This document shows positions 5,803-22,062 of a stretch of 25,645 bases of DNA, piece after piece. The position numbers and the translations under genes were made by a program. Position 1 is the stretch's first letter. Every line of letters begins with the position of its first letter. The notes beneath the pieces were generated by a model. It ran no database searches. It was not told the DNA's origin and saw nothing but the letters and a program-made list of their open reading frames with translations. The stretch spans positions 9,477 to 35,121 of the IMG/VR virus record IMGVR_UViG_3300008261_003981. One strand, 5' to 3'. Source of the DNA: a virus.

Positions 5803-5942
5803 GAGTATTGTTTACATATTCTGATACTGCGCCAGGCGGAACACCAAAACAAGGTGACCAATGGTATGAATCGGATTCAGGCATTTTGTTTACTTACATA
5901 AACGATGGCGACAATTCGCAATGGGTACAACTTGGCATTTAA
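5094..5942 (+). CDS. Fibre protein, C-terminal fragment of a split gene
   Basis: The frame is open from 4944 to 5942, but the first usable start is TTG at 5094, with no convincing ribosome site; the true start was probably that of the gene at 4444. The open region begins inside a beta module (VEGTTLTVNVTTLSVEDSI), continues through GFIGHYSNG, HTGLVRHAADDTYYLF and NVDPLTQ, then Ala-Asn heptads with an AVDTWVRDAANSASSYAN linker. It ends in a module with GGTPKQGDQWYESDSG and NDGDNSQWVQL, the same kind of module that starts the C-terminal region of the 1258-aa fibre. Rejoined with 4444-4977 it would make a roughly 500-residue fibre. It is probably a decayed gene or an assembly casualty rather than a separate protein. 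Confidence 0.55.
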   Translation: MVRHAADDTYYLFKEYSPDITNVIDVANARIATINTNVIASSILLRNVDPLTQANAAFAAANTADQKAVSAGSYANGAFVAANTADQRAVTSGSYANSAFTAANTADQRAVTSGSYANGAFAAANTADQRAVTSGLYANSAYLHANAAFNAANNAVDTWVRDAANSASSYANSAYIKANAAFGVANSASSYANGAFEAANTADQKAVTSGSYANSAFGTANSASSYANGAFTTANSRVLFTYSDTAPGGTPKQGDQWYESDSGILFTYINDGDNSQWVQLGI

Positions 5943-5967
5943 TCTAATTTAAAAGATTAAGTAGATT

Positions 5968-6474
5968 ATGCCGAATATTAATTTTCCTACAAGTCCAGCT
6001 TTAAATGATCAATATTCATTTCAAGGCAAAACCTGGACTTATAATGGAGTTGCTTGGGTATTAACATCAAGTCCTACATCGTTAAGACTTGATTCGGCAT
6101 ATGGTCATGCTAATGCGGCTTTTGCTTATGCAAATACTATATCAGGTGGTGCTGCAATTGATAACGTTGCAAGACTGCAAGCTAACTCATCGTATATTCA
6201 TGCTAATGCGGCCTTTGATAAAGCCAATACAGGTTCTGGAAGTGCTAATAGTTTTGGTGTAATCTATACTGCAAATAATAATACTTTTGCTAATGCAGAA
6301 ACTTCTAATGCTCAAGTTAATTTTGTAGGTGAATCTGGTGTTGTTGTATTTGCCAATTCAATTACCAAAACAATTACTGTAGCTGGTACTCCAGGCGCTC
6401 AAGGATTAACGGTAGATTATGGATTTGTTGCAGACCCTATATATTACTCAATCGATTACGGATCTTTAGCTTAA
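5968..6474 (+). CDS. Small fibre/virion protein sharing the GKTW..NG N-terminal domain
   Basis: The product has 168 residues. Residues 1-35 are a close copy of the N-terminus of the 4444 gene (INFPTSPALND, then FQGKTWTYNGVAW). Two short Ala-Asn heptad stretches follow, around a linker SGGAAIDNVARLQANSSY that is repeated almost exactly in the gene at 8806. Residues about 95-140 form a beta-rich region (VIYTANNNTFANAET, then VVVFANSITKTITVAG), and the tail reads GFVADPIYYSIDYGSLA, an ending seen in other T4-like marine phage structural proteins. It looks like a complete but minimal version of the fibre family. The role is structural; the location on the particle is unknown. Confidence 0.6.
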   Translation: MPNINFPTSPALNDQYSFQGKTWTYNGVAWVLTSSPTSLRLDSAYGHANAAFAYANTISGGAAIDNVARLQANSSYIHANAAFDKANTGSGSANSFGVIYTANNNTFANAETSNAQVNFVGESGVVVFANSITKTITVAGTPGAQGLTVDYGFVADPIYYSIDYGSLA

Positions 6475-6498
6475 TTTTGAAAAAAATTTTGGAACAAC

Positions 6499-6506
6499 TA
6501 TAAATA
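6499..6506 (+). promoter_or_regulatory. T4-type late promoter element TATAAATA
   Basis: This is an exact match to the T4 late promoter consensus recognised by the gp55-type sigma factor. It lies 6 nt before the ATG at 6513, so the expected start point would be almost at the ATG and the transcript would be leaderless or nearly so. No ribosome site is visible between the element and the ATG. The match is exact, but its promoter activity is inferred. Confidence 0.55.
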
Positions 6507-6512
6507 ACTATT

Positions 6513-8465
6513 ATGTCAACACAAGTTCAATTAAGACGAGGTAATACCACTCAGACAAACGCATTTACAGGTGTGGTTGCTGAAGTTACCGTAGATACAG
6601 ATAAAAATACCGTTGTTGTTCATAATGGTTCTACCGCTGGTGGTTTTCCATTAGCAAGAGAATCTTCTGTAACGACTGTAGGTTCTTATGCTAACTCCGC
6701 ATACATTCATGCCAATGCTGCTTTTGCGGCCGCTAATAATGCGGTTGATACATGGGTTCGTGATTCTGCTAATTCAGCATCTTCTTATGCCAATGGTTCA
6801 TTTACTAAAGCCAATACTGCCAATACATTAGCACAAGCCGCTTTTGATAAAGCCAATTCTGTACAATCATTTTTAACCTTTGATGCAAATGGTACAAATG
6901 TTGTAGCAGATTCTCAAACAGATACAATTACAATAACACCAGCAAATGGTATTATTGTTACAGGTAATGCATCAGCAGATTCGATTACATTAGGCCTTAC
7001 TGAACTTGCACAAGGTAATACAGGCAGTCAAATATTTGTTTCACCTAATGGTAATGATAATAATGATGGTCTTGCAACTAGTCGTGCAAAAAGAACTATT
7101 CGTGCTGCAATGAACGCAGCTCGTCCATTCACACAAGTTACAATCGCTTCAGGTACATACGAAGAAATTACTCCAATTATTGTACCTCAATTTGTACAAG
7201 TAAAAGGTGATGGTGAAAGAACTACTATTATCAAACCATTAGATACTTCAAAAGATGTATTTTGGGTTAATAATGGTTGTTGGATTAGTTGCATGAAATT
7301 TGAAGGCTATTTAGCCAATGCTGTTGCTTTTCCAGGTTCAACAATTTCTTCTGGCACGGCTCAAAGTGGTGGTGCTAGTACAATTACTCTTGCTTCTGGT
7401 GAAGATTCTTTAGATGGCATTTATAGAGATATGACCATCAGTATTACAAGTGGTACAGGTGCAGGTCAAGGAAAAATAATTTCTTCTTATAACGGAACAA
7501 CAAAAGTTGTTACTGCTAACTCTGCATGGTCTACACAACCAGATAATACTTCTGTATATGCAATTAAAATTCCATTAAGATCAACACCAGCAGCCAATAC
7601 TGCAAGATGGTCTACATGTATTACTGCATCACCATATGTTTATGTTTGTTCTTCAGGCACAACAACAGGCACAGGTTTGCGTGTTGATGGTTCTTTAGCA
7701 ACAGGTAATAAGAGTATAATTTCTGCACAGTTTACACAAGTTAATGTGGGCGGCAAAGGATTTCATGTATCAAATGATGGTTATTCTCAGTTAGTTTCTA
7801 TGTTTGGTATTTTCTGCGATATTGCTTTCTTAGCAGAATCAGGTGGTACTGCTTCAATGGGTAACTGCAACGTTAACTTTGGTAATAAAGGTCTTGTATC
7901 TAATGGCAAAGGTGCCTTAGTGATGACTGCAACATTCAATGGTGATACAACAGTTGGTTCATTTACCGCCAATCTAAATAATGTATCAGCAAATACTGAT
8001 CCATTTTTTAATATATTGGCAACTGAGCCGTATGTTGGTTTGATTGGTCTTGTAAATGGTGATACCTCAGGAACATATTATTATGTTACAACTTCTTCAC
8101 CAATTTCTGGTGGACAAACAGTAGTAGAATTTAGAGAATCGTTAGACAATGTATTTACAAGTGGTACAACAATTAATTTTTATCAACAAAGTCAATTAAG
8201 AGCAAGTGGTCAAACATTTGAATTTGTAGGAGCTGGAACATCAATAAGTACAGCATTACCAAGAAATGGTGGAGTCCCAAATACTGAATTACAGATTGTT
8301 CGTATCGCAGAGGGTGCAGTTTTCTGTACTTCTACCGATCAAAATGGAAATTTCTTAGTATCAGATTTGTCGATTGACCAAGCAACAGGTACAATTTCTG
8401 GTACAACATTTACAAAGAGCTTGTTTGCTCAAATGACACCATTCATTCTTGCTTTGGAAGGCTAA
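6513..8465 (+). CDS. Virion protein with Mtd-like N-terminus and beta-helix domain
   Basis: The product has 650 residues. Residues 1-50 (VQLRRGNTTQTNAFTG, then EVTVDTDKNTVVVHNG) match the N-terminal domain of the major tropism determinant type, a virion-attachment module. A brief Ala-Asn heptad section follows (about 55-115). Residues about 170-275 resemble the DUF1565/pectate-lyase-like right-handed beta helix (QIFVSPNGNDNNDGL, TIRAAMNAARPF, SGTYEE). A GTGAGQGKIISSYNG module sits near residue 310, and the rest is beta-rich. No catalytic residues can be assigned. Proteins of this plan are appendage or baseplate-associated structural proteins in T4-like cyanophages. A 6-nt gap separates it from the next gene. 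Confidence 0.7.
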   Translation: MSTQVQLRRGNTTQTNAFTGVVAEVTVDTDKNTVVVHNGSTAGGFPLARESSVTTVGSYANSAYIHANAAFAAANNAVDTWVRDSANSASSYANGSFTKANTANTLAQAAFDKANSVQSFLTFDANGTNVVADSQTDTITITPANGIIVTGNASADSITLGLTELAQGNTGSQIFVSPNGNDNNDGLATSRAKRTIRAAMNAARPFTQVTIASGTYEEITPIIVPQFVQVKGDGERTTIIKPLDTSKDVFWVNNGCWISCMKFEGYLANAVAFPGSTISSGTAQSGGASTITLASGEDSLDGIYRDMTISITSGTGAGQGKIISSYNGTTKVVTANSAWSTQPDNTSVYAIKIPLRSTPAANTARWSTCITASPYVYVCSSGTTTGTGLRVDGSLATGNKSIISAQFTQVNVGGKGFHVSNDGYSQLVSMFGIFCDIAFLAESGGTASMGNCNVNFGNKGLVSNGKGALVMTATFNGDTTVGSFTANLNNVSANTDPFFNILATEPYVGLIGLVNGDTSGTYYYVTTSSPISGGQTVVEFRESLDNVFTSGTTINFYQQSQLRASGQTFEFVGAGTSISTALPRNGGVPNTELQIVRIAEGAVFCTSTDQNGNFLVSDLSIDQATGTISGTTFTKSLFAQMTPFILALEG

Positions 8466-8471
8466 TAAAAA

Positions 8472-8813
8472 ATGGCACAAAATATACCTTTAAACGTTTT
8501 TAGAACAATTGCATTACCGGTTACAACGGTTGCAAATACTGTTTATACTTGTCCAGCTGGAATTACAACAGTTGTTCTTCTAGCACAAGTATCTAATGTT
8601 AATACATCAAGTTATGTTGATGTTACCGCTTCACATATTCGTAATGGTAATGTTACACGACTAATTGCAAATACAGAAATACCTACAGAAGATGCAACTA
8701 ATATGTTGATGGGTAAATTAGTTTTGGAAGCAGGAGACGGATTTAGAATTTCAGCAAGTGCAAATAGTAGTGCAGAGTTAACATTATCACTATTAGAAAC
8801 CTCAAATGGCTAA
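8472..8813 (+). CDS. Small conserved virion protein
   Basis: The product has 113 residues with a compact beta-sandwich look: IPLNVFRTIALPVTT, then VYTCPAGITTVVLLAQVSN, KLVLEAGDGFRIS and a final ELTLSLLETSNG. Similar small proteins sit among fibre genes of T4-like marine phages. The stop overlaps the start of the next gene (ATG at 8806 is read in another frame across the last two codons and TAA), so the two are translationally coupled. It may be a cap or adaptor for the fibre that follows; that is inference from position only. Confidence 0.6.
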   Translation: MAQNIPLNVFRTIALPVTTVANTVYTCPAGITTVVLLAQVSNVNTSSYVDVTASHIRNGNVTRLIANTEIPTEDATNMLMGKLVLEAGDGFRISASANSSAELTLSLLETSNG

Positions 8814-11800
8814 TCATAAATTATTAAGCGGCCGAGTAAAAGTAACACCTGCAGCTAATGTAGCGGCAGATCGTTATAATTATCTTGGACTAGAACAAGC
8901 TGAACCAAACCTTGGCGTTGCAAATGCTGATGGTTTTGTTCTCACGTATAATACAAACTCACCAGGCGGTAGACTATGGCAATCTTCTTCATTACTTTCT
9001 GGTGGATTAGTTGCTCAGTCTGCATTTCAAACTGCTAACAATGCTGAAGCGTTATCCACATCTGCATACATTCACGCTAATGCGGCCTTTGATAAAGCCA
9101 ATACAGTTGGTTTACATGCCAATGCGGCCTTTACAACTGCTAATACAAAATATAGTTCATCAGGCGGAACAATTACTGGTGATGTATTAATTACAGGCAA
9201 TTTGAGTGTTGAAGGTACCACTCTTACAGTTAATGTAACTACTCTGTCTGTTGAAGATTCTATTATCCAATTAGCAAATGGCAATATTACAGATACTATC
9301 GATATTGGATTTATAGGTCATTATAGTAACGGTACCGCAAATGTACATACAGGACTTATTAGACACGCTGTAGATGATACTTATTATTTGTTTAAAGAAT
9401 ATTCTCCTGATATTACAAATATTATTGATGTTGCCAATCCAAGTTTTAAGATTGCTACATTAAGTGCCAATCTAACAGCCAACTCAGTATTAATCCGTGG
9501 ATTAGATCCACTAACACAAGCTAATACCGCAGATCAAAGAGCAGTAACTTCTGGTGCCTATGCTAACTCTGCATACATCCATGCCAATGCAGCCTTTGCA
9601 GCTGCTAATACTGTATCGGGTGGTGCTGCAATTGATAACGTTGCTAGACTGCAAGCTAACTCATCTTACATCCATGCTAATGCAGCCTTTGCAGCTGCCA
9701 ACTCAGCAAACATAACCGCACAAGCTGCTTTTGCGGCCGCCAATAATGCAATAGATACTTGGGTTCGTGATGCGGCCAATAGTGCTTCGTCATATGCTAA
9801 CGGAGCCTTTGCAGCCGCTAACACCGCAGATCAGAAAGCTACAAGTTCTGGCTCATATGCCAATGGTGCCTTCGTAGCTGCCAATACCGCAGATCAAAGA
9901 GCAGTTACTTCTGGTGCTTACGCTAATAGTTCTTACTTACATGCTAATGCGGCTTTTGCAGAAGCCAATTTAAAATATAGTACTAATGGTGGTACAATTT
10001 CTGGTGATGTAACTGTTACAGGTAATTTAACTGTATCAGGCCAAACAACCTATGCCAATAGTACTGTTGTAAATCTTGGTGATGCTGTCATTACTCTTAA
10101 TGCAGATATTCCACAAGGATTTGCACCAACAGAAAATGCAGGTATTGAAATTGATCGTGGTTCATCCGATAATGTTTCTTTACTTTGGAATGAAACATCT
10201 GATAAGTGGACATTTACTAATGATGGTACAAATTATAGTCAAGTAGGTTCAGCAGCTGCCGAATCGTATGCTAATGGTGCTTTTGCAGCCGCTAATACTG
10301 CTGATCAAAGAGCAGTTACTTCTGGTGCTTATGCTAATAGTTCTTACTTACATGCTAATGCGGCCTTTGCAGCCGCTAATAGTGCAGCTAGTTCTTCTAC
10401 TGATACTTTTGCGAGAACACAAGCTAATGCTTCTTTTATAACTGCCAACTCTGCTTCATCATATGCTAATGGTGCCTTCGTAGCTGCCAATACTGCCGAC
10501 CAAAGAGCAGTTACTTCTGGTGCCTACGCCAATGCAGCCTTTGGTATTGCTAACTCTGCTTCAAGTTATGCTAATGGTGCCTTTGGTGTTGCCAATTCAG
10601 CAAGTTCATATGCTAACGGAGCCTTTGTAGCTGCTAACACCGCAGACCAACGAGCTGTAACTTCTGGCTCATATGCTAACTCAGCATATCAAACTGCTAA
10701 CTCTGCTGCTTCATATGCTAATGGTGCTTTTGCATCTTCTAATACAAGACTTTCGACTTCTGGTGGTACAATTTCTGGCGATCTTGTTGTTACGGGAAAC
10801 CTAAGTGTTGAAGGTGCTACTGTTACAGTTAATGTAACCACATTAGCCATTGAAGATTCTATTATTCAATTAGCCAAAAATAATACTGGTGATAGTATTG
10901 ATATTGGTTTCTTAGGTCACTACAATAACGGTAGTGCTAATATTCATACAGGTTTATTCCGCAGAGCAGCGGACGATAAGTACTATTTGTTTGAAAACTG
11001 GAATGGTGAACCTACTGGTCAAACAATTGATATTTCCAACCCAACATTTACAATTGCCACATTAAGTGCCAATCTAACTGCCAATTCTGTTATCATTCGT
11101 GGATTAGATCCATTAACACAAGCTAACGGAGCTTTTGGTGTTGCTAATTCGGCATCTTCTTATGCAAATGGTGCTTTTGCAGCTGCTAACACAGCTGATC
11201 AAAAGGCCGTTACTTCAGGTTCATATGCTAACTCCGCATACATTCATGCCAATGCGGCCTTTGCGGTTGCTAACTCAACAAGTGTAACAGCACAAGCAGC
11301 TTTCAATACCGCCAACAATGCTGTAGATACTTTTGCACGAATTCAAGCCAATGCGGCCTTTGATAAAGCCAATACCGCAGAAGGTACAGTAGGTAGTTTA
11401 GCGTATGCTCATGCTAACAGTTCTTATTTACATGCTAACGCAGCCTTTGCAGCTGCTAACAGTTCACCAGGTACAGTAGGCCAATTAGCTTACAATCATG
11501 CCAATGGTGCCTTTGCTTTAGCTAACTCAGGTGGTTCACAAATTTATGTTGCATCATTACAGAATTTTTCAAGTAATGGTCAAAACACCACATTTACTTT
11601 ATCTACAACACCAACTTCTGCAAATCAGTTGTTTGTTTATGTTGATGGTATTTACCAACAAGCTTCTGCATATACTTTAACTAATAATGTTATTACATTA
11701 TCTGAAGCTCTCGATGCCAATGCGGTACTTGAAGTTCGTGTACTTGCCAATAGTACACCTGCACATATTAATAACCAAGTAGATACATTTACTGGTACAG

Positions 11801-12435
11801 GTGCATGTACAACATTTACTTTAACTTCTGTACCTAGAGATAAAAATTTAACAACTATTATTGTTGGTGGTGTACCACAATTAAAATCTGCTTATAATAT
11901 TTCTGGATCATCTCTTGTATTTTCTGGTGCTCCAGCAAATGGTGCCTCGATTGAAGTATCTACTTACTCTGGTGGTGGTTCATATGCCACTTCATTTACT
12001 TCAGTTATTGATACATTTACTGGTGATAACAGTACAACAACATTTACATTATCAACACTACCGCAATCTGAAAATCAAACATTTGCTTTTTTAAATGGTG
12101 TATATCAACAGAAAAATACTTATTCAATTTCTGGTGCAAATATTGTCTTTACAGCCACAGCAACATCAAACGATACTATTGAAGTAGTAACAGTTGCTGG
12201 TAGTGAGATGAATGTAACTTCTGCTCGTTACAATACAAGAACATACACCGCTAATGGCGTACAAACAACATTTACAATATCTTCTGGCCATACCGCAAAT
12301 TCTATTTTAGTATTTGAAAATGGTATTTGCCAAGAACCAATTGCAGACTATACAGTAAGTGGAACCACATTAACATTCGTTGGTGGTGCACCAGTAGTTA
12401 ACACAAGAATTCAAATTAGAGAACTTCCAGTTTAG
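8806..12435 (+). CDS. Large tail-fibre-like protein with heptad repeats and C-terminal beta repeats (1209 aa)
   Basis: The N-terminus (HKLLSGRVKVTPAANV, residues about 3-60) is a distinct attachment-like domain. Ala-Asn heptads alternate with three beta modules near residues 120-235, 395-480 and 653-772. The first and third belong to the GHYSNG/HTGL.R.A.DD.YYLF subtype, and the second to the AGIEIDRG/WNE subtype found three times in the 1258-aa fibre. Residues about 921-1209 are four tandem beta repeats of roughly 72-76 residues, each with a T-T-F-T-[LI]-S core, a V-x-G-x-x-Q turn, and an S-G-x-x-[LI]-x-F strand. These are typical of fibre tips in T4-like marine phages. The gene overlaps its upstream neighbour by 8 nt. 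It is the best intact reference for the split gene at 4444-5942. Confidence 0.75.
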   Translation: MANHKLLSGRVKVTPAANVAADRYNYLGLEQAEPNLGVANADGFVLTYNTNSPGGRLWQSSSLLSGGLVAQSAFQTANNAEALSTSAYIHANAAFDKANTVGLHANAAFTTANTKYSSSGGTITGDVLITGNLSVEGTTLTVNVTTLSVEDSIIQLANGNITDTIDIGFIGHYSNGTANVHTGLIRHAVDDTYYLFKEYSPDITNIIDVANPSFKIATLSANLTANSVLIRGLDPLTQANTADQRAVTSGAYANSAYIHANAAFAAANTVSGGAAIDNVARLQANSSYIHANAAFAAANSANITAQAAFAAANNAIDTWVRDAANSASSYANGAFAAANTADQKATSSGSYANGAFVAANTADQRAVTSGAYANSSYLHANAAFAEANLKYSTNGGTISGDVTVTGNLTVSGQTTYANSTVVNLGDAVITLNADIPQGFAPTENAGIEIDRGSSDNVSLLWNETSDKWTFTNDGTNYSQVGSAAAESYANGAFAAANTADQRAVTSGAYANSSYLHANAAFAAANSAASSSTDTFARTQANASFITANSASSYANGAFVAANTADQRAVTSGAYANAAFGIANSASSYANGAFGVANSASSYANGAFVAANTADQRAVTSGSYANSAYQTANSAASYANGAFASSNTRLSTSGGTISGDLVVTGNLSVEGATVTVNVTTLAIEDSIIQLAKNNTGDSIDIGFLGHYNNGSANIHTGLFRRAADDKYYLFENWNGEPTGQTIDISNPTFTIATLSANLTANSVIIRGLDPLTQANGAFGVANSASSYANGAFAAANTADQKAVTSGSYANSAYIHANAAFAVANSTSVTAQAAFNTANNAVDTFARIQANAAFDKANTAEGTVGSLAYAHANSSYLHANAAFAAANSSPGTVGQLAYNHANGAFALANSGGSQIYVASLQNFSSNGQNTTFTLSTTPTSANQLFVYVDGIYQQASAYTLTNNVITLSEALDANAVLEVRVLANSTPAHINNQVDTFTGTGACTTFTLTSVPRDKNLTTIIVGGVPQLKSAYNISGSSLVFSGAPANGASIEVSTYSGGGSYATSFTSVIDTFTGDNSTTTFTLSTLPQSENQTFAFLNGVYQQKNTYSISGANIVFTATATSNDTIEVVTVAGSEMNVTSARYNTRTYTANGVQTTFTISSGHTANSILVFENGICQEPIADYTVSGTTLTFVGGAPVVNTRIQIRELPV
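8983..11545 (+). repeat. Ala-Asn heptad arrays of the 1209-aa fibre
   Basis: Several arrays (about 9010-9145, 9520-9960, 10255-10740, 11125-11535) encode the same seven-residue pattern as the other fibres. Recurrent linkers are shared between genes, notably AIDTWVRDAANSASSYAN (also in the 5094 and 6513 products) and SGGAAIDNVARLQANSSY (also in the 5968 product). The shared linkers suggest that blocks move between paralogues. Confidence 0.75.
11566..12432 (+). repeat. Four tandem beta repeats at the fibre C-terminus
   Basis: Four diverged units start near 11566, 11784, 12009 and 12238. Each carries T-T-F-T-[LI], a V/I-x-G-x-x-Q turn and a closing I-E-V or I-x-I-R strand. The repeats are protein-level only; the DNA has diverged. 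Confidence 0.7.
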
Positions 12436-12443
12436 AGATAACT

Positions 12444-12527
12444 ATGCCATTTACACAAATAAACACTACAAATATTCAACCGAATACCGTTGTTGATTTT
12501 GCCACCATCGGCAGTTACTCGTGTTAG
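12444..12527 (+). pseudogene. Out-of-frame N-terminus of the first RCC1 fibre gene
   Basis: An ATG at 12444, eight bases after the upstream stop, starts MPFTQINTTNIQPNTVVD, a plausible fibre N-terminus. The frame closes at TAG 12525-12527. The downstream body lies in the +1 frame, and its similarity to the paralogue at 20326 starts near 12487. The paralogue has about 75 residues before the equivalent point and this gene has about 15, so a deletion with loss of frame is the simplest reading. Confidence 0.55.
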
Positions 12528-13935
12528 TAGCACACAATTAAGAGTTCAACTACCAGCAAAATCAGCGGCGACCTATAATCTTTATGTGGTTAATCCCGAT
12601 GGTGGTACAGGTATTCGTGTAAATGGAGTAACTTATTCATCAAATCCAAATTGGGTTACTTCCAGTCCTTTGAGTAATCAAGTTTCTGGCGTAGCATTTA
12701 ATGTCACTCTTAGTGCTACTGGAGCTACTTCATATGCTGTAGCTGCTGGTTCCACATTACCAACTGGCACCACACTAGCAGCTAATGGTTATTTTTATGG
12801 TACTGTTACTGTTGGTCTTCAAACCACATACTCATTTGATGTTGTAGCTACTGATGCTGAAAATCAAGATGCTTCAAAAACATTTCAAGTAACAGTATCA
12901 ATAGTATCACCTGGTCTTTTTGTATTTGGAAATCAAGCATTTGGTCAATTAGGACTCAATGATGGAGTCAGCAGTAAATTAGGTAATGCCAATCAAGCTT
13001 TTTTTGGAATTAAAACAGATGGTACTTTATGGGCATGGGGATTTAATACTACTGGCCAATTAGGACGTAATTTTGCTCAAGCAGATTTATTGGCTGCGTC
13101 CAGTCCAGTTCAAGTTGGATCAGGAACAGATTGGGCTCATATTAATAACGGTGGTTCAACCGTATTGAGTGCAATAAAAACCAATGGTACACTATGGATG
13201 TGGGGTTATAATTTTTCTAATCTGTACCTTGGTGGAATTACTGGGTACCGAAGCAGTCCAGTGCAATTAGGAAGTAATACAAATTGGTTAAGAAGTTATA
13301 CGAATTATGCTTCTGCTGCCATTAAAACAGATGGTACTTTGTGGGCATGGGGAACTAATACTAATGGCCAATTAGGAGGAAATAATACAGTTTATAGATC
13401 CAGTCCAACACAAGTAGGAACAGATACGAATTGGTCAATAATAGGTAATGCTAATGGCAATATGTTAGGTATTAAAACTAATGGTACTTTATGGTCGTGG
13501 GGAAATAATAATTATGGTCAACTAGGACAAAATGATGCAGTTCTAAGATCCAGTCCAGTTCAAGTAGGATCAGGAACAGATTGGTCGGATGTTGTAACTA
13601 CATCCAGCGGGCCTGCTATCTATGCATTAAAAACTAATGGAACAATATGGTCGTGGGGAAGAAATGTAAATGGTAATTTAGGTCAAAATGATGCAACTCA
13701 TCGATCTAGTCCAACTCAAATAGGTAGTTTAACAGGTTGGACAAAAATAGCTCCTGCGGCCCAAGGCTCGCATGCAGGAGCTATTAGAAATGGTGCATTA
13801 TGGTTATGGGGAAATAATGCTTATGGACAATTAGGACAAAATAATGCAATTCTTAGATCCAGTCCAGTTCAAGTAGGATCAGGAACTGGTTGGGCTGATG
13901 TTATATTATCATCACAGGCCACACTAGTAGATTAA
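12490..13935 (+). CDS. RCC1-propeller fibre-like protein, first copy (N-terminus damaged)
   Basis: The open frame gives 481 residues from a TTG at 12490 with no visible ribosome site, so the native start was probably ATG 12444 in another frame. Residues 1-55 are the end of an IPT/TIG fold (AATYNLYVVNPDGGTG). Residues about 55-138 are an Ig-like domain (WVTSSPLSNQVSG, LPTGTTLAANGYFYGTV). The rest is a seven-bladed RCC1-type propeller. Blade motifs such as IKTDGTLWAWG...GQLG recur six times after a first partial blade (LFVFGNQAFGQLG). Between blades lies an R-S-S-P-x-Q-[VI]-G loop. RCC1 propellers bind proteins or glycans; here a receptor-binding or fibre-tip role is inferred. It is paralogous to the intact gene at 20326. 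Confidence 0.7.
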   Translation: MLILPPSAVTRVSSTQLRVQLPAKSAATYNLYVVNPDGGTGIRVNGVTYSSNPNWVTSSPLSNQVSGVAFNVTLSATGATSYAVAAGSTLPTGTTLAANGYFYGTVTVGLQTTYSFDVVATDAENQDASKTFQVTVSIVSPGLFVFGNQAFGQLGLNDGVSSKLGNANQAFFGIKTDGTLWAWGFNTTGQLGRNFAQADLLAASSPVQVGSGTDWAHINNGGSTVLSAIKTNGTLWMWGYNFSNLYLGGITGYRSSPVQLGSNTNWLRSYTNYASAAIKTDGTLWAWGTNTNGQLGGNNTVYRSSPTQVGTDTNWSIIGNANGNMLGIKTNGTLWSWGNNNYGQLGQNDAVLRSSPVQVGSGTDWSDVVTTSSGPAIYALKTNGTIWSWGRNVNGNLGQNDATHRSSPTQIGSLTGWTKIAPAAQGSHAGAIRNGALWLWGNNAYGQLGQNNAILRSSPVQVGSGTGWADVILSSQATLVD

Positions 13936-14043
13936 TTCTACATGACTTAATATATTCTTATCATCATATAAACCAAATAATACAAGACTATTATTTAAGT
14001 AACATATATATTATTATGATTTAATTATTTGAAAGGTGTTTTT
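13936..14043 (+). other. AT-rich gap before the glycan cassette
   Basis: This 108-bp stretch has no gene. It is very AT-rich, with runs such as ACATATATATTATTATGAT. No exact TATAAATA element, no strong terminator and no tRNA is visible. It marks the boundary between fibre genes and the cassette. Its last bases hold an AAAGG ribosome site (14032-14036) serving the GTG at 14044. Confidence 0.5.
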
Positions 14044-15918
14044 GTGAAAAAAATTTATTTCCTATCAGGACTACCACGTTCTGGATCAACAGTCTTGGCT
14101 GCTATTCTTAGCCAAAATCCAAGTATTCATGCCACATCTACTTCTAATCTTTTAGATACCTTAGTGGGTACTCTAAGAGCATGGGCAGATAGTTTGACCA
14201 CTAGAGCTCAAACAGATCAGAAAAAAGAAGAAGAAAAAATTCAGAATGTTTTAAATAACATCTGTAAAACTCAATACGATGATATTGATAAACCCATTAT
14301 TCTTGATAAAGCTCGAGGTTGGGCAGATGATACTAACATGCGTACCATGTCTAAAGTTCTTGGACATAAACCTAAAATTATTGCCACGGTTCGTAATGTA
14401 GAAGATTGTGCCGCTTCTTTTGTTCGTGTGGCCAAGCCAAAAGATTTGGATTATTTTTTACTTAAAGATGACCTAATTAAACATCTTAAAGAATCATATC
14501 AAACATTTGAAAAAGGATATTCATTTGCACCTGAATGCTTTTTAATCATTGACTATGATGATTTGATGAATGATCCGCAAAAAGAATTAAAACGAGTTCA
14601 TGAGTTTTTAGAAACATTTGAAAAAGGATATTCATTTGCACCTGAATGCTTTTTAATCATTGACTATGATGATTTGATGAATGATCCGCAAAAAGAATTA
14701 AAACGAGTTCATGAGTTTTTAGAATTACCGGATTTTGAATATGATTTAAATACCATTGACGGTACCAATCTGCAAGAAAAAGATGAAGAAGTTTGGGAAG
14801 TAAAAGGCCTTCACGATATTAAACCAAAATTAGGTTATCAACACAAAGAAGATTCTAAAGATGTATTGAAACATCGTTATTATGAATTCTTACAACCAAG
14901 ATTTTGGTTAGGTGAAAAAGTCAATCCAAATAAACCAATACATGACCTTGATCTACAGTTGGCTGCCGGTCTAATGGGTGACTTCAAAGAAGGTTGGAGA
15001 TTAGCTCAAAAGATTGAACAAGAAGAACCATGGAATAATCGTGCAGCCTTTAATCGTGGTTGGTATCTCATGCAACATGGTAAACTTTTAGAAGGTGAAA
15101 AACTATTGTTCCGTGGCCGTGATGAAAGTGTTTTTGGTAATGAACCTCCTAGGTCTCCAATGCCAATGTGGGATGGCAAATCAAAAGGTACCGTACTATT
15201 AAACCTAGAAGCTGGATTAGGTGACCAGATACACGGAGTTCGTTACGCAAGGGATATTGCAAAGATTGCTGGTGAAGTGATTGTGGCGTGTTCTGGTTCG
15301 TTGGCGACACTATTCCGTGATGTAGAAGGAGTTGTTGCGGTTTGCCAGAGTGATGCCGTATATGGGGTAGTTCATGATTATTGGGCACCATCGATGTCCA
15401 CGATACCTATTCTAGGTTACGAATACAAGGATATATCAGGAAAACCATACATAAATAAACCGTTAGTAGAACCACATAAAGGTTTGAGAATCGGTCTACG
15501 GTGGCAAGGTAATCCACAGTTCGAACATGAACAACATCGGATCTTTCCACCAACTAAACTATTTAATGCCGTAGAAGATGTAGATGCAGAATTTATATCA
15601 CTGCAACGAGATGAAGGTTCTCAATACAAACCATATTGGGTTAAAGAAGTACCACTAGGTCATTGGGAACAAACACGAATGGCAGTAGCTAGTTGTGATC
15701 TAGTTATCACATCATGTACCTCTGTTGCACATCTCTGTGGTGCCATGGGAATACCAACATGGATTGTAGTACCTATATTACCATACTATTTGTGGGCTTT
15801 ACCAGGAAACACAACAGTCTGGTATGATTCGGTGAAGCTGTATCGCCAAGAAGTATTTGGAGAATGGTCTGCTCCATTTGATCAGATCAAAGTTGATTTA
15901 CAAAATTTTAAAAAGTAA
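14044..15918 (+). CDS. Sulfotransferase-TPR-GT9-like glycosyltransferase fusion
   Basis: GTG at 14044 is preferred, giving 624 residues, because AAAGG lies 7 nt upstream; an in-frame TTG at 14029 lacks a site. Residues 7-20 (LSGLPRSGSTVLAA) are the PAPS 5'-phosphosulfate loop of sulfotransferases, and IIATVRNVEDCAASF near residue 111 matches the 3'-phosphate-binding R...S region. Residues about 153-226 include a perfect 37-residue tandem duplication. Residues about 305-365 look TPR-like. The C-terminal half matches TPR-linked GT9 (heptosyltransferase-like) enzymes: PMWDGKSKGTVLLN, EAGLGDQIHGVRYA, LRIGLRWQGNP and CTSVAHLCGAMGIP. The product should transfer sulfate and a sugar in the cytoplasm; acceptors are unknown. 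With the duplication, the sulfotransferase part may be altered. The fusion itself is clear, being one continuous frame. Confidence 0.75.
   Translation: MKKIYFLSGLPRSGSTVLAAILSQNPSIHATSTSNLLDTLVGTLRAWADSLTTRAQTDQKKEEEKIQNVLNNICKTQYDDIDKPIILDKARGWADDTNMRTMSKVLGHKPKIIATVRNVEDCAASFVRVAKPKDLDYFLLKDDLIKHLKESYQTFEKGYSFAPECFLIIDYDDLMNDPQKELKRVHEFLETFEKGYSFAPECFLIIDYDDLMNDPQKELKRVHEFLELPDFEYDLNTIDGTNLQEKDEEVWEVKGLHDIKPKLGYQHKEDSKDVLKHRYYEFLQPRFWLGEKVNPNKPIHDLDLQLAAGLMGDFKEGWRLAQKIEQEEPWNNRAAFNRGWYLMQHGKLLEGEKLLFRGRDESVFGNEPPRSPMPMWDGKSKGTVLLNLEAGLGDQIHGVRYARDIAKIAGEVIVACSGSLATLFRDVEGVVAVCQSDAVYGVVHDYWAPSMSTIPILGYEYKDISGKPYINKPLVEPHKGLRIGLRWQGNPQFEHEQHRIFPPTKLFNAVEDVDAEFISLQRDEGSQYKPYWVKEVPLGHWEQTRMAVASCDLVITSCTSVAHLCGAMGIPTWIVVPILPYYLWALPGNTTVWYDSVKLYRQEVFGEWSAPFDQIKVDLQNFKK
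14501..14724 (+). repeat. Perfect 111-bp in-frame tandem duplication
   Basis: Positions 14501-14611 and 14612-14722 are identical base for base, and the match runs 2 nt further (to 14724). The unit encodes 37 residues, including FAPECFLIIDYDDLMNDPQ. It keeps the reading frame. Absolute identity implies a very recent event or an assembly artefact. Confidence 0.9.
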
Positions 15919-15930
15919 TAGGAGATAGTA

Positions 15931-16353
15931 ATGCCAACAAGATCAGGTTATAATGTTCGAGTTCAGAATGGTCAAGTAACAGATTGCTGGGATACACCAG
16001 CACCAGAAGGTCAATCCGGTTGGAGTGCAGCCGTAGAGATTACTCCAGACCTCACACCTAACCGTGAAATTCTTACAACACACCATTTTGATATTACCAA
16101 AAATCCAATCGAGATTGTTTGGGGTAAGCGTGAGTTGTCAGTTGATGAGCGTAAAGGTTCTTTAATTGGTCAAGCTGAGTTTGAAGTAATGCGTTTAGAA
16201 AACCAATTGCAAATGAAGCGTAATATGCCAGAGTTTGCTGACCAAATCTCTACACTCGAAGCTGAGATTGAAGCCGCCAAGTCAACTAGAGATGCTCGTG
16301 TTATTCAAGTTAATGCAGCCGTTACACATGAGGATGTTGACGCACTAATGTAA
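15931..16353 (+). CDS. Conserved phage protein of unknown function
   Basis: The product has 140 residues and a strong ribosome site (GGAGA at 15921-15925). The N-terminal part (GYNVRVQNGQVTDCWDTP, then DLTPNREILTTHHFDITK and PIEIVWGKRELSVDERKG) resembles a small family found near fibre genes in T4-like marine phages; no function is known to me. Residues about 85-130 are charged and helical (EAEIEAAKSTRDARV), a likely coiled coil. It sits between two transferase genes, but nothing in it suggests catalysis. A fibre-assembly or accessory role would be a guess. Confidence 0.55.
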   Translation: MPTRSGYNVRVQNGQVTDCWDTPAPEGQSGWSAAVEITPDLTPNREILTTHHFDITKNPIEIVWGKRELSVDERKGSLIGQAEFEVMRLENQLQMKRNMPEFADQISTLEAEIEAAKSTRDARVIQVNAAVTHEDVDALM

Positions 16354-16370: not shown

Positions 16371-17087
16371 ATGAATTCTTTGTTTTTTTCGTATAATATG
16401 GATGTAGATAAGGCTTACATCATTCGGGTTAAAGATAATAAAAAATCTGAAGATGTGGCCTTACGATGTGCCGAATCATGTGAAAAGGTTAAAATGCCTT
16501 TTGAATATTGGGATGCCTATGATGGTTATTCTCGGCGCATCAAAGAGCCGGAACATTCCAAAAATAGTTCAGTAATGAAAATGATGAAAATCACCGATCA
16601 TTACTTGACGAGAGGTGAGGTGGCTTGTGCATTATCTCATATTTCTTTGTGGGCTAAGTGTATTGAGATAGACCAACCAATTGTTATTTTAGAACATGAT
16701 TCGATTATGGTTCAACCATATCTCACTCATACCGTTTTTAATTCAATCGCATATCTAGGTAATAACGAACAGGTCAACGGTGGTTGGCCAGTTCTACCAA
16801 CACCTACTCATGCATCAGAAGGACCAAACTATCATTTTATTTGTAGGGCTCATGCATATGCCATTGATCCTGCTGTGGCAAAAAATATGATTTCTCATGT
16901 AATTAAATTTGGTATCTGTGCACCACTTGATATCATTCTTCGAGCTGACATATTTCCAATTCATCAGACGGGTATCTACGCATATGATGTGAAAGAAAGA
17001 GAAGAAGATGGTAATCTTAAAACAACCATTCTTGGTAGACCTTTAGAAGGCCGTTCAACAATTCGTAATGATAGATTAGAAGTATGA
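16371..17087 (+). CDS. GT25-family glycosyltransferase
   Basis: The 238-residue product follows the GT25 (LPS galactosyltransferase-like) plan. An N-terminal strand DKAYIIRVKDN is followed by a W-D-A-Y-D-G segment, then LTRGEVACALSHISLWAK, the family's most conserved block, and VILEHDSIMV, where E-H-D stands in place of the usual E-D-D metal-binding triad. A second half with HAYAIDPAVAKNMI matches the family's acceptor-side region. The enzyme would transfer a hexose, typically galactose, from a nucleotide sugar. The start at 16371 has only a weak GAAAG site; Met9 (16395) is an alternative. The stop overlaps the next ATG by 4 nt (ATGA), so translation is coupled. Acceptor unknown. Confidence 0.7.
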   Translation: MNSLFFSYNMDVDKAYIIRVKDNKKSEDVALRCAESCEKVKMPFEYWDAYDGYSRRIKEPEHSKNSSVMKMMKITDHYLTRGEVACALSHISLWAKCIEIDQPIVILEHDSIMVQPYLTHTVFNSIAYLGNNEQVNGGWPVLPTPTHASEGPNYHFICRAHAYAIDPAVAKNMISHVIKFGICAPLDIILRADIFPIHQTGIYAYDVKEREEDGNLKTTILGRPLEGRSTIRNDRLEV

Positions 17088-17665
17088 ATTACACCATAAG
17101 GTTTCACGATCACACCATTAGAAGTTTTCAACACATTGTAAGTTCAATTGGCTTTCCAAAAACAACTATTGAAATTGGTTGTTTTGAAGGAGAAAGCACA
17201 TTCAATATAGCGGCCATTTGCCATCAACGAGATTCTAATTACAAACACTATGCAATCGATCCTTACGATATAAGTGATGATCTACCAGAAAAAAATATAC
17301 CACAGACCAAAGAAATGTTTTTAAGTAATTTAGAAGAATTTGAACCTAAAGGTGTGGTAGAGTTTATTAATAAAAAATCATTTGATGGATTGATTGACTT
17401 ATATAACCGTGGTGTTAAAGCCGATTTCATTTATGTTGATGGTGACCATCGAGCACCAGGTGTATTACAAGATTGTGTTTTAGGATTTGAATTGTTGAAT
17501 AAAGGTGGTGTAATGTTATTTGATGACAGTATGGTATGGAGAAAAGATAACAACCCATGCAACTCACCTAAAATGGCAGTAGATAATTTTATGCAATGTT
17601 ATTGGGATAAATTAGAAATTTTTGAGTTACCTACTGGCTATCAATCTGCTATTCGTAAATTATGA
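17084..17665 (+). CDS. Class I SAM-dependent methyltransferase
   Basis: The product has 193 residues. TTIEIGCFEGESTFNIA (about 27-43) is the glycine-rich SAM-binding motif I, HYAIDPYDIS the acidic motif II, and ADFIYVDGDHRAPGVLQD followed by NKGGVMLFDDS corresponds to the D-G-x-H and post-motif regions of the Methyltransf_24 type. Enzymes of this kind often sit in polysaccharide clusters and O-methylate sugars. It has ATGA overlaps at both ends, linking it to the GT25 gene and the GT2-like gene, so it is probably made in proportion to them. The substrate is inferred from context only. Confidence 0.7.
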   Translation: MNYTIRFHDHTIRSFQHIVSSIGFPKTTIEIGCFEGESTFNIAAICHQRDSNYKHYAIDPYDISDDLPEKNIPQTKEMFLSNLEEFEPKGVVEFINKKSFDGLIDLYNRGVKADFIYVDGDHRAPGVLQDCVLGFELLNKGGVMLFDDSMVWRKDNNPCNSPKMAVDNFMQCYWDKLEIFELPTGYQSAIRKL

Positions 17666-18495
17666 TTCATGTTGTATTAAGGACTTGCAATAGAACTTCT
17701 CTACAGTCCGATAGAATAGTAAATAAATCTGAATGTATTCTTCGGTGTTTAAATTCAATTATCACCAATCTCAGAGATATACCAGAAAAATCATTACACA
17801 TTATTGATGACAATTCTGTTGCTGAATTTCAGGACATACTTAAAGAACTGATTCAACCACACGATTTCGTTACAATCAATTTTTTACCACCAAGAAATCA
17901 AGAAGGATTATCACCTAAGAAAAAATCTAGGCACTCAGTTCAAGTAGCCTACGAATACATCTACAATTTACCTGATGATGATTTGGTGTACATTGTAGAA
18001 GATGATTATCTACATTTTCCTAATGCCATTGGTGAAATGATTGAATCGTGGACATATCTTTCATCGGTCACTGGTTTAGAAATAGGTATTTTTCCACAAG
18101 ATTTCAATCAACTATATTATCATCCAAGTCATCCATATAATGAAACATATTATAGGCCATGTTTTGTTGTTCCTACACAGCATAGATATTATAGGAGCAC
18201 ATGGTTTACACAAGAATCATTTATGATTCAAGCCAAGATATTTAAAAAGTATAAAGAACACTTTGATAAATTATTAATTATTGGTGAAGAAGAACATCAT
18301 TGGGAAGGTAACACGATATCCACGGTGTGGAATAAACCAGAATTTAAAATGTTTATGCCAATGGGTTCACTCGTGGTACATATGTCAAACAAGATGGACA
18401 TACCGTTTTATATAACGAAAGATACCGTAATTAAATTATGGGAAAAAAACAAAACATACTGGTCGTTGGAACAGGATTCTCAGGTTCAGTTATAA
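17662..18495 (+). CDS. GT2-like (GT-A fold) glycosyltransferase
   Basis: The product has 277 residues. It begins MIHVVLRTCNRTS, a typical first strand of GT-A enzymes. It then has LHIIDDNSVAE (nucleotide-binding strand and D-D-N-S) and DDDLVYIVEDDYLHFPNA, where E-D-D acts as the DxD metal site. Later come LIIGEEEHHWEGN and MGSLVVHMSNKM. It may use UDP-galactofuranose, because the next gene makes that donor; this is inference. It starts in an ATGA overlap with the methyltransferase. Its 3' end overlaps the mutase gene by 58 nt, far more than the 4-nt overlaps elsewhere in the operon. The last 14 residues, after a slippery heptamer, look unconserved. Confidence 0.65.
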   Translation: MIHVVLRTCNRTSLQSDRIVNKSECILRCLNSIITNLRDIPEKSLHIIDDNSVAEFQDILKELIQPHDFVTINFLPPRNQEGLSPKKKSRHSVQVAYEYIYNLPDDDLVYIVEDDYLHFPNAIGEMIESWTYLSSVTGLEIGIFPQDFNQLYYHPSHPYNETYYRPCFVVPTQHRYYRSTWFTQESFMIQAKIFKKYKEHFDKLLIIGEEEHHWEGNTISTVWNKPEFKMFMPMGSLVVHMSNKMDIPFYITKDTVIKLWEKNKTYWSLEQDSQVQL

Positions 18496-19439
18496 CCAGG
18501 GAACTGGCCAATCATGGTTATAATATTACCATAATTGACCAAAGAGGCCATATTGGTGGCAACTGTTATGATGAGATGATAGATGGTGTTCTAGTACACC
18601 GCTACGGACCGCACATCCTACACACAAATAACAGTAGAGTAATTGAATGGTTGTCCCAATACACCGAGTGGGTACCATATCAACATAAAGTCAAAGCATA
18701 CCACAAAGGCCAATATTTAACTTTACCACCTAATTTGGAAACACAAAAAATATTGGGTGATAAATTGTTTGAAACTCTGTATGTGCCTTATTCTAAAAAG
18801 ATGTGGGGCTTGCCAACCGATAAGATTGATAGTAGTATATTAAACCGTATCAAACTAAGAAATGATTTAAACGAATTATATTTTCCAAATGATGAATACC
18901 AATGCCTACCCAAAGGTGGTTATAATAAACTATTTGGAAATATATTAAACCATTCAAATATAAAAATAAAATTAAACACCAAGTTTTCTAAAGAAATGGA
19001 AACTGAATATGATTTTGTTTTTAATTCAATGGCAATAGATGAGTATTATGATTACTGTCATGGTGAATTACCATATCGATCAATTAAGTTTCATTTTACC
19101 AAAAAATCTTACTTTGATATGCCAACATCGGTAGTTAATTTTACGGATGATGGGCCATATACACGCATCACAAAATGGGAATTGTTTCCTGAACATGGAT
19201 TCGGTGAGAGATATACATTAGAAGAACCTTGTGATTATCGAGATAATAATTATGAACGATATTATCCAGTCAAAGATTCAGAAGGTTTAAATCGAGCAAT
19301 ATATAATAAGTATAAGGACATAAAAAACGACAAGGTCCAGTTTATTGGTAGATGTGGATTGTATGTTTATATTGATATGGATATGGCAATCAGTTCATCA
19401 TTGGCAATCGTTGATAATTTTATTAAGGAACAAATATGA
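18438..19439 (+). CDS. glf: UDP-galactopyranose mutase
   Basis: The flavoenzyme interconverts UDP-galactopyranose and UDP-galactofuranose. Residues 7-25 (ILVVGTGFSGSVITREL) form the FAD-binding Rossmann loop. GHIGGNCYDE and HRYGPHILHTNN follow, both signature mutase segments. KKMWGLP, DEYYDYCHGELPYRSIKF and VVNFTDDGPYTRIT match the substrate-binding region. RYYPV and GRCGLYVYIDMDMAI, with the Y-x-Y-x-D-M active-site element, match the end of the fold. At 333 residues it is a little shorter than most bacterial enzymes (about 365-390) but retains the main blocks. The ATG lies inside the GT2 gene. The stop overlaps the next gene by 4 nt. Confidence 0.85.
   Translation: MGKKQNILVVGTGFSGSVITRELANHGYNITIIDQRGHIGGNCYDEMIDGVLVHRYGPHILHTNNSRVIEWLSQYTEWVPYQHKVKAYHKGQYLTLPPNLETQKILGDKLFETLYVPYSKKMWGLPTDKIDSSILNRIKLRNDLNELYFPNDEYQCLPKGGYNKLFGNILNHSNIKIKLNTKFSKEMETEYDFVFNSMAIDEYYDYCHGELPYRSIKFHFTKKSYFDMPTSVVNFTDDGPYTRITKWELFPEHGFGERYTLEEPCDYRDNNYERYYPVKDSEGLNRAIYNKYKDIKNDKVQFIGRCGLYVYIDMDMAISSSLAIVDNFIKEQI
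18444..18450 (+). promoter_or_regulatory. Candidate -1 frameshift slippery heptamer A_AAA_AAC
   Basis: In the GT2 frame the codons are GAA AAA AAC, so the heptamer is in the exact phase required for -1 slippage. After a slip the next codon is CAA at 18450-18452, and the ribosome then reads QNILVVGTGFSG, the mutase frame. A short hairpin, CCAG-GGAA-CTGG (18496-18507), lies about 45 nt downstream, farther than is usual. Function is a hypothesis; the phase is seen directly. Confidence 0.4.
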
Positions 19440-20266
19440 AAAAGATTTTAATTATGGGTTTACCTGGTGCCGGTAAAACATTTTTGGCAGAAGCATTAAA
19501 AAAATACCTAGAAAAACATGCTGAACGAGCCGATTATGGTGAAATGTTACCCATCACAGGATTTAGTGCTCAAGTAACTTGGTTCAATGCTGATGATGTT
19601 CGTAAGAAATTCAATGATTGGGATTTCTCTAAAGAAGGACGTATTCGGCAATCATTAAGAATGGCACAGTTTGCATTTGAAGCTGGTGGTGATTATGTTA
19701 TCTGTGATTTCGTGGCACCTATTCCAGAAATGAGAAACAATTTCAAAGCTGATTGGACAATTTGGGTTGATACAATTGAAGCTGGTCGTTATGAAGATAC
19801 GAATAAAATGTTTGTACCACCAGATGTATATGACTTCCGTGTTACAGAACAAAATGCAGAGAAATGGGCTGAGTTTATTGGTAATCACATTATTGAAAAT
19901 CGTAGGCGGCCTGTGTTTGACTGGAAGAAAGAAACAGTTCAAATGTTAGGTCGTTGGCAACCATGGCATGAAGGTCACCGAGCGTTGTTTGACCGAGCCA
20001 TTGCCAAAACTGGTCAAGTAGTCATTCAAATTCGAGATTGCCAAGGATGGCAAGGTTCTAATCCGTTTGCCATTGAACAGGTTAAATCGTATATCCGTAG
20101 AGATTTAGATCCAATCTATCAAGGCCAATACGAGATTCAAGTGGTACCCAATATCGTCAATATCACCTATGGTCGTGATGTGGGATACAAAATCGAACAA
20201 GAAACCTTTGACAAATTAATCACCGACATCTCAGCCACCAAGATTCGTAAACAAATGGGAGTCTAA
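19436..20266 (+). CDS. APS kinase-like domain fused to a nucleotidyltransferase domain
   Basis: The product has 276 residues. The N-terminal half has a P-loop (GLPGAGKT, residues 8-15), FNADDVRKKFNDWDFSKEGR and IRQSLRMAQFA, which align with the D-G-D-N-V-R and G-F-S-x-x-D-R-x-x-N-I-R-R regions of adenylylsulfate kinase. That enzyme makes PAPS from APS and ATP. From residue 170 a second domain shows LGRWQPWHEGH (H-x-G-H at 178-181) and, at 265-271, ISATKIR, the two hallmarks of the HxGH nucleotidyltransferase superfamily (NMNAT, ATP sulfurylase and cytidylyltransferase relatives). Its substrate is unknown; APS formation is possible but unproven. The ATGA overlap with the mutase places it in the same operon as the sulfotransferase that would use PAPS. 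Confidence 0.7.
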   Translation: MKKILIMGLPGAGKTFLAEALKKYLEKHAERADYGEMLPITGFSAQVTWFNADDVRKKFNDWDFSKEGRIRQSLRMAQFAFEAGGDYVICDFVAPIPEMRNNFKADWTIWVDTIEAGRYEDTNKMFVPPDVYDFRVTEQNAEKWAEFIGNHIIENRRRPVFDWKKETVQMLGRWQPWHEGHRALFDRAIAKTGQVVIQIRDCQGWQGSNPFAIEQVKSYIRRDLDPIYQGQYEIQVVPNIVNITYGRDVGYKIEQETFDKLITDISATKIRKQMGV

Positions 20267-20325: not shown

Positions 20326-22062
20326 ATGACCACGAAAATTCTTGGAACTCAAATCACCGCTGGAACAATTGAAACTACACAATTAAGTAATACAGCAACA
20401 GCAACTCTTGTTAAAACACTAGCGCCTAAAGTTTTATATGCCAACGTGGCCAGTAATACCTTTACAGTATTAGATGATACAGCGGTTAACGTAGGTGGTG
20501 GTTACATTGTGGTTACTGGTGCCGAATTCCAATCTGGGGCCACCGTATTAATTGACACAACTCCTGCTTCAGCCGTTACATACGTAAATTCTACAACTTT
20601 ACAAGTTCAAGTTCCAACAAAATCAGCGGCATCTTATAATCTTTATGTGGTTAATCCTGATGGTGGCGTTGGTATTAAAGTTTCTGGTATTACATATAGT
20701 TCAGAACCATCTTGGGTCACTTCAAGTCCTTTAAGTAATCAAGCAGCCAATACAGCTTTTGCTGTCACTCTTAGTGCCACTGGTGCAAACACATATACTG
20801 TAGCAGCTGGGTCTACATTGCCAGCAGGTACTACATTAGCTGCCAACGGATATTTTTATGGTACAGTTTCTATTGGTGCTCAAACCACATATACATTTAG
20901 TATTGTAGCTACCGATGCTGAACTTCAAGATTCTTCAAAAACATTTCAAGTAACAGTAACGATCCAAGGAATTGATACACCAGGATTTTTGTATACATGG
21001 GGCGCTGTGGGGACTGCAGGTAGCCAGCCAACGGGTGTGATCAATGGAAACGCAGCTACTCCGCAAAAAAATGGATCAGAAACATGGTCCAAAATATCTG
21101 CCGGGTCCGGGTCAAGTAAAGGTATTAAAACCGATGGCACCTTATGGACATGGGGAAAAAATGTGTTGGGTGAATCAGGAGGTGCAAATGCCGTTGACAG
21201 TCCAATACAAATAGGATCAGCGAACAATTGGTCGCTGGTGGATGGCAGGGGGTATTCTGCTGCAGCCATCAAAACCGATGGTACATTGTGGACTTGGGGA
21301 TATAATAATAGGGGTCAATTAGGCCTTAATGGTACAAGTAATCAAAACTTTCCACAACAGGTGGGAACAAATACTAATTGGCAAAGTGTAACATTCACAG
21401 GGTTGGACCTTGAGGCAGCGTTTGCAATCAAAACTGATGGCACACTATGGGCATGGGGAGATAACGAATACGGCATATTAGGACTCAATGATAAAGTTTA
21501 TAGATCCAGTCCAGTACAGGTAGGAACGAATACAAATTGGAGCAAACTTGCTATTGGAACGATTGGAGCTATCAAAACAGATGGTACCTTATGGTTGTGG
21601 GGCAGGGGTCATTATGGTCGATTAGGAATTGGTAACTCAATTTATAGATCAAGTCCAGTACAAGTAGGAGCAGATACAAATTGGAGCATGGTAGTTGGTA
21701 CTCGATATGCTGCAATGGCAGCTATCAAAACAAACGGTACTCTATGGACATGGGGCAGGCAAACAAGAGGTGTATCAGGTCGTGTTAGTGCCGATTTAAC
21801 CGGTGAAACAAACTCGCCAACCCAAGTAGGATCAGCAACCGATTGGAGTCGAATAAGTGCGGGCCAGCAAAATTTTATGATGGCCATTAAAACCAATGGT
21901 ACCTTATGGTTGTGGGGAGATAACCAATATTATCAATTAGGCACAGGTGATGGAGGTCTTAATGTGGCAAATAGATCCAGTCCAACACAAATAGGATCAG
22001 CGACCAAATGGACTACAGTAAGTGCTGGCCGGTTTCATAGTTTGGCTATATCTAATATTTAA
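20326..22062 (+). CDS. RCC1-propeller fibre-like protein, second, intact copy (578 aa)
   Basis: Residues 1-60 are an attachment-like N-terminus (MTTKILGTQITAGTIETTQL). Residues about 62-128 form an IPT/TIG domain (GGGYIVVTGAEFQSGATV, then YNLYVVNPDGGVG). Residues about 128-212 are an Ig-like domain (LPAGTTLAANGYFYGTV, then FSIVATDAE). A seven-bladed RCC1 propeller follows, with blade strands LYTWG, LWTWG, LWTWG, LWAWG, LWLWG, LWTWG and LWLWG. The chain ends HSLAISNI, a strand that can close the first blade. It is a likely fibre tip or receptor-binding protein; glycan binding is inference. It has its own late promoter. It is a paralogue of the gene at 12444-13935, which lies on the other side of the glycan cassette. 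Confidence 0.75.
   Translation: MTTKILGTQITAGTIETTQLSNTATATLVKTLAPKVLYANVASNTFTVLDDTAVNVGGGYIVVTGAEFQSGATVLIDTTPASAVTYVNSTTLQVQVPTKSAASYNLYVVNPDGGVGIKVSGITYSSEPSWVTSSPLSNQAANTAFAVTLSATGANTYTVAAGSTLPAGTTLAANGYFYGTVSIGAQTTYTFSIVATDAELQDSSKTFQVTVTIQGIDTPGFLYTWGAVGTAGSQPTGVINGNAATPQKNGSETWSKISAGSGSSKGIKTDGTLWTWGKNVLGESGGANAVDSPIQIGSANNWSLVDGRGYSAAAIKTDGTLWTWGYNNRGQLGLNGTSNQNFPQQVGTNTNWQSVTFTGLDLEAAFAIKTDGTLWAWGDNEYGILGLNDKVYRSSPVQVGTNTNWSKLAIGTIGAIKTDGTLWLWGRGHYGRLGIGNSIYRSSPVQVGADTNWSMVVGTRYAAMAAIKTNGTLWTWGRQTRGVSGRVSADLTGETNSPTQVGSATDWSRISAGQQNFMMAIKTNGTLWLWGDNQYYQLGTGDGGLNVANRSSPTQIGSATKWTTVSAGRFHSLAISNI

Follow-up and report, generated by a model that had tools for sequence, protein, structure and literature searches.

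Analysis of a 25.6 kb stretch of DNA (the window) from a 35.1 kb IMG/VR viral record revealed a single protein of 624 aa (positions 14044–15918, + strand, GTG start) in which a sulfotransferase half is joined through a TPR-like linker to a GT-B glycosyltransferase half. We propose, with a probability of roughly 55%, that this phage enzyme is bifunctional and both glycosylates and sulfates the RCC1 tail-fibre-like protein encoded next to it. Both folds, the conserved cofactor and glycosyltransferase motifs, purifying selection on the two halves and the gene linkage were established by computation. The component enzyme families are known and the architecture is new; no sulfotransferase–glycosyltransferase fusion was found in literature phrase searches of open-licence papers, no full-length match to the three-part protein among 50,697 phage records, and no near-full-length match in a viral structure library (best TM-score by query 0.52).

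The open frame runs from 14029 to 15918 without an internal stop, and the GTG at 14044 was assigned as the start by matching it to the start of close relatives, which is also where an earlier sequence-only reading had placed it. That reading had reported a PAPS loop and glycosyltransferase signature blocks within one frame, and LPRSGST, EAGLGDQIHG and CTSVAHLCGAMG are all seen there. A promoter and terminator scan returned signals no more frequent than in shuffled sequence. The N-terminal half (14044–14907, + strand) matches PF13469 with 86.6 bits against a cut-off of 27 (E value 3.8e-24; Pfam), and Pfam, PDB profile matches and Foldseek together identify it as a sulfotransferase with a TPST-like fold. 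The PRSGST loop that would bind the 5'-phosphosulfate of PAPS (14074–14091, + strand) is invariant in 24 relatives, as are the T-V-R, C and S positions of the 3'-phosphate motif. In an AlphaFold2 model of the close homologue L003 (pLDDT 86.5, pTM 0.63), human TPST2 is the best Foldseek match to this half (E value 2e-7), with CurM and OlsST among the next matches and heparan-sulfate 3-O-sulfotransferases also matching; the TM-scores by target of the best matches range from 0.45 to 0.59. The PAPS loop, the 3'-phosphate motif and the fold are common to the fusion and the PF13469 enzymes TPST1/2, CurM and OlsST.

The appearance of TPST1 and TPST2 among the top matches by sequence profile and by fold, together with the 16 and 20 tyrosines of the two RCC1 proteins in the window, could reflect two independent marks on one protein, namely tyrosine sulfation and Ser/Thr glycosylation, which would be a sub-case of the main explanation. 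However, CurM and OlsST are about as good as matches by sequence profile, and in the profile alignment the catalytic Glu of TPST (Glu99 in TPST2) falls on an invariant Thr of the sulfotransferase half. Because of this substitution, tyrosine sulfation is not specifically supported, and we regard the two-mark alternative as unlikely. Standalone sulfotransferases of phages S-SKS1, S-SRM01 and S-SCSM1 and of OM43 phages have a domain homologous to that of the fusion but are encoded by separate genes that are not joined to the glycosyltransferase half. The function of phage sulfotransferases has been called unclear (PMC10580990).

The linker (14944–15126, + strand) consists of four helices predicted from AlphaFold2 secondary structure (residues 264–324 of the L003 homologue), which form two TPR-like hairpins in that model; the Pfam TPR models gave no match in the window protein. 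The C-terminal half (15187–15915, + strand) was assigned as a GT-B enzyme through alignments with phage and bacterial TPR-linked glycosyltransferases (TPR-GTs) and through Foldseek matches to SPINDLY and TibC. Its motifs are ExGxGDQIH, GLRWQGNPQFEHE, SLQRD, SCTSxxHLxxAMG and WY...RQ...W, and in the aligned phage and bacterial TPR-GT rows ExGxGD, WxGNPxF, HL..A and WY..RQ...W are invariant or nearly so. A profile of this half finds bacterial TPR-GT proteins at about 1e-38, and it aligns with TPR-GT proteins of Planctomycetota, Acidobacteriota and Pseudomonadota; it is homologous to the bacterial TPR-GT proteins. No Pfam model matches the C-terminal half even at E≤1. The earlier label "GT9-like" holds for the GT-B fold and the motifs but not for the family itself, as PF01075 gives no match to the window protein at E≤1.

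In the L003 model the C-terminal half adopts a GT-B fold, for which Foldseek gave matches to SPINDLY, a protein O-fucosyltransferase, and TibC, a protein heptosyltransferase. In the Caulobacter protein FlmG, as in the fusion, a single chain carries a TPR region and, after it, a GT-B domain; FlmG O-glycosylates flagellins, a surface structural protein (PMC7591256). The N-terminal sulfotransferase and a TPR region of just two hairpins are features of the fusion and not of FlmG, and the likeness is one of layout. TibC modifies a bacterial surface protein, and the BAHT/TibC heptosyltransferases feature a catalytic Asp-110, sugar-binding residues, an iron finger and a dodecameric assembly (PMC4358343); they match the fusion in GT-B fold, with about 12% identity in the structural alignment, but unlike it have no sulfotransferase. 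SPINDLY and the GT41 protein O-glycosyltransferases share the TPR and GT-B layout and match structurally, although the likeness of GT41 to the window protein is by fold only, with no match to PF13844.

The same architecture was found well beyond the window. An initial search of viral contigs yielded 52 loci, and an alignment scan gave 482 viral relatives, the best 80 of which match over nearly the full length. Both halves occur together in 106 six-frame ORFs of the fetched loci, a count in which some contigs are represented twice, so that the distinct number is lower. The fusion is carried by hundreds of phages, most of them uncultured. A fusion created by sequencing error, with a stop codon lost between two separate genes, is ruled out by these 106 fused ORFs and by the reversed order in split pairs, which run glycosyltransferase then sulfotransferase. 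Comparison of both halves in thirteen pairs gave dN/dS values of 0.02–0.22 where estimable. The exception is the glycosyltransferase half of the window/L003 pair (0.48), where a dS of 0.01 represents too few changes to be meaningful; two of the thirteen pairs (L012/L013 and L025/L040) gave no estimate owing to saturated synonymous sites, and the sulfotransferase half of L011/L014 is near saturation (dS 2.39). Both halves are under purifying selection wherever dN/dS can be reliably estimated.

Related loci arrange the same parts differently. Five phages (L131, L133, L134, L169 and L178) encode RCC1, glycosyltransferase and sulfotransferase as separate genes in a row. A contig binned as Nomurabacteria (L060) has, after an RCC1 gene, one ORF in which the glycosyltransferase precedes the sulfotransferase; because its glycosyltransferase half branches outside the sulfotransferase–glycosyltransferase clade in the glycosyltransferase tree, the phylogeny suggests that the halves were fused a second time, in the opposite order. 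Its place in the sulfotransferase tree, drawn with a midpoint root, is less sure. A further contig (L058, 1646–5695) has a 1350-aa ORF that combines sulfotransferase, glycosyltransferase, methyltransferase and TPR regions with GT41, the O-GlcNAc-transferase family, and adjoins an RCC1-like gene; only here does a GT41 domain occur, as an extra C-terminal module. As a phage-or-cell check, the MAGs containing L058 and L060 were searched with PF03237 and PF04984, neither of which matched. One locus (L051) has the glycosyltransferase alone after RCC1, and in Synechococcus cyanophage BUCT-ZZ01 an RCC1-like gene is followed by a glycosyltransferase–methyltransferase protein. Marine virus AG-345-E08 has a TPR-GT and a separate sulfotransferase amid RCC1-like and 2OG-Fe oxygenase genes; in this cluster (L129, 4546–10341) one 2OG-Fe(II) oxygenase-like ORF was confirmed by Pfam.

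Because a fusion, a reverse-order fusion and adjacent split gene pairs all bring the two activities together, it is probable that both halves share one pathway. The earlier proposal that the two steps act on the same acceptor stands as far as a single pathway is concerned. Fusion for co-expression only, with the halves serving different pathways, would account for standalone sulfotransferase genes in phages such as S-SKS1 and S-SRM01 and for the glycosyltransferase-only genes of L051 and BUCT-ZZ01, but the reverse-order fusion and the adjacent split pairs point to one pathway and make this improbable.

The candidate acceptor is encoded immediately upstream of the fusion gene by an RCC1-repeat (beta-propeller) gene (12490–13935, + strand; Pfam RCC1, 1.3e-36), and a second RCC1-repeat protein lies further downstream (20326–22062, + strand; PF00415, 3.7e-42). 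After removal of identical copies there were 87 distinct loci with the glycosyltransferase half, and in 71 of them the fused gene is flanked by genes on both sides. In 62 of these 71 loci the gene immediately upstream of the fusion is an RCC1 gene, and in 68 there is one no more than two genes away on one side or the other. When a random non-RCC1 gene was drawn from the same loci instead, 6.7 upstream RCC1 neighbours were expected and at most 15 were obtained in 10,000 draws; the 71 loci are related by descent, and this kinship was kept in the control. An RCC1-type gene precedes most fused forms and also the split, reverse-order, glycosyltransferase-only and glycosyltransferase–methyltransferase forms. 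Adjacency by itself is no proof of an acceptor, and we favour the RCC1 protein in this role by a modest degree. Among the nearest solved folds are TPST2, SPINDLY and TibC, all of which modify proteins. PHROGs places phage RCC1-repeat proteins under DNA metabolism, and an RCC1-like protein of phage GAP32 has been detected in virions by mass spectrometry (PMC5259590).

Downstream of the fusion gene, all on the + strand, are genes for a small linked protein of 140 aa (15931–16353), a syntenic GT25-family glycosyltransferase (16371–17087; PF01755, 3.9e-16), a SAM methyltransferase (17084–17665; PF13578, 1.4e-16), a GT2-family glycosyltransferase (17662–18495; PF00535, 2.9e-6) and a UDP-galactopyranose mutase (18438–19439; PF03275, 2.5e-44). 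The last four, along with an APS-kinase-like gene, recur downstream of the fusion in other loci. A homologue of the 140-aa protein lies within two genes downstream in 51 of the 71 loci; the protein itself had no family match above noise in Pfam, PHROG or NCBIfam, and that it is a tail-fibre chaperone is a guess. Genes for a T4-type neck protein and a tail-sheath stabiliser also lie downstream (PF11649 and PF16724), which indicates that the window derives from a T4-like phage, and the nearest phage matches of another downstream protein are annotated neck proteins at no more than 49% identity. Positions 4444–12435 of the window hold tail-fibre-like ORFs with 21-residue alanine/asparagine repeats encoded by 63-nt tandem units, for example SYANGAFVAANTADQRAVT.

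This sugar-related neighbourhood could instead serve the host surface, with a sugar added to LPS or capsule and then sulfated, for instance as a superinfection block, and with the proximity to tail genes being incidental. Pfam annotates GT25 as an LPS biosynthesis family, and the UDP-galactopyranose mutase, the GT2 enzyme and an NDP-sugar epimerase-like ORF occur in the same record. We nevertheless consider modification of the host surface rather unlikely, since RCC1 adjacency persists in the fused, split, reverse-order and glycosyltransferase-only forms, none of the families matched in the window was recognised as a lipid carrier or flippase, and the glycosyltransferase half is nearest to TPR-GT proteins, SPINDLY and TibC.

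A mechanism is proposed for modification of the RCC1 protein, in which we infer the catalysis, the donor sugar, the acceptor and the order of the steps. By analogy with FlmG, docking of the acceptor would fall to the TPR-like helices, and the C-terminal TPR-like and GT-B half would add a sugar to the RCC1-repeat, tail-fibre-like protein of the phage. The PAPS-dependent N-terminal half would then add sulfate to the product, whether at the new sugar or at a protein residue close by, and the neighbouring GT25, GT2, methyltransferase and UDP-galactopyranose mutase proteins could extend or trim the glycan. Virion glycosylation in mycobacteriophages, as cited in PMC12619734, provides a precedent. 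More tentatively, at somewhat less than even odds, a single fused enzyme may glycosylate and sulfate RCC1 tail proteins in the host cytoplasm before virions assemble, as a widespread system that would give the phage a surface coat or receptor-binding tip that is charged and independent of the host. The fusion points to a specific, testable partner for phage sulfotransferases, namely the glycosyltransferase encoded in the same polypeptide or by the neighbouring gene, and to the RCC1 protein beside it as their likely substrate; the linkage also argues that phage RCC1-repeat proteins are decorated surface proteins. Sulfated virion glycans in aquatic phages, if they exist, would bear on adsorption, host range and particle charge.

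PAPS may be supplied by the product of the gene at 19436–20266 (+ strand), in which an APS-kinase-like domain is fused to an HxGH nucleotidyltransferase. The protein scores 30.5 bits against PF01583, above the cut-off of 21.1, and 20.7 bits against the NCBIfam apsK equivalog, below the cut-off of 138.7. Its best Foldseek matches are APS kinases (PAPSS1 kinase domain, E value 1e-6), for a structure predicted from rows of viral loci and the window only. All five of the larger fusion contigs tested carry this gene, and the APS-kinase-like fusion has at least 576 relatives in viral contigs. Among the 35 loci of 15 kb or more in which the gene occurs, only 12 have a recognised sulfotransferase nearby, and phage DLP_6 has the gene with no PF13469 match. 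A dedicated PAPS-supply gene is therefore only partly supported, and the APS-kinase-like gene is not specific to sulfotransferase clusters.

The window copy of the fusion gene differs from its relatives in a perfect, in-frame tandem duplication of 111 bp within the sulfotransferase half (14501–14611 and 14612–14722, + strand, the second copy identical to the first), which the sequence-only reading had not mentioned. The duplication is absent from every relative checked, and no other viral contig has its junction. The PAPS loop lies 382 residues from the GDQI motif in the window, compared with 308–345 in the sulfotransferase–glycosyltransferase relatives measured. Because the copies are perfectly identical and no relative checked has them, the duplication is either very recent or an artefact of assembly. 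The repeated unit spans a core strand and helices of the sulfotransferase fold, and the sulfation activity of the window copy is therefore doubtful; its sulfotransferase half may be impaired. That this copy is broken or mis-assembled, with an inactive sulfotransferase half as read, has about an even chance given a perfect repeat in the core fold and a junction confined to this contig, although the duplication keeps the frame and the remainder of the gene is intact. Such a defect would be compatible with the proposed glycosylation and sulfation of RCC1 proteins by the family as a whole, and intact copies that lack the duplication are common in related phages. Upstream of the window, the same record (L055, 106–3813) contains three radical SAM-like ORFs, with CxxxCxxC-type motifs recognised by eye, among glycosyltransferase-like, amidinotransferase-like, epimerase-like and deacetylase-like ORFs.
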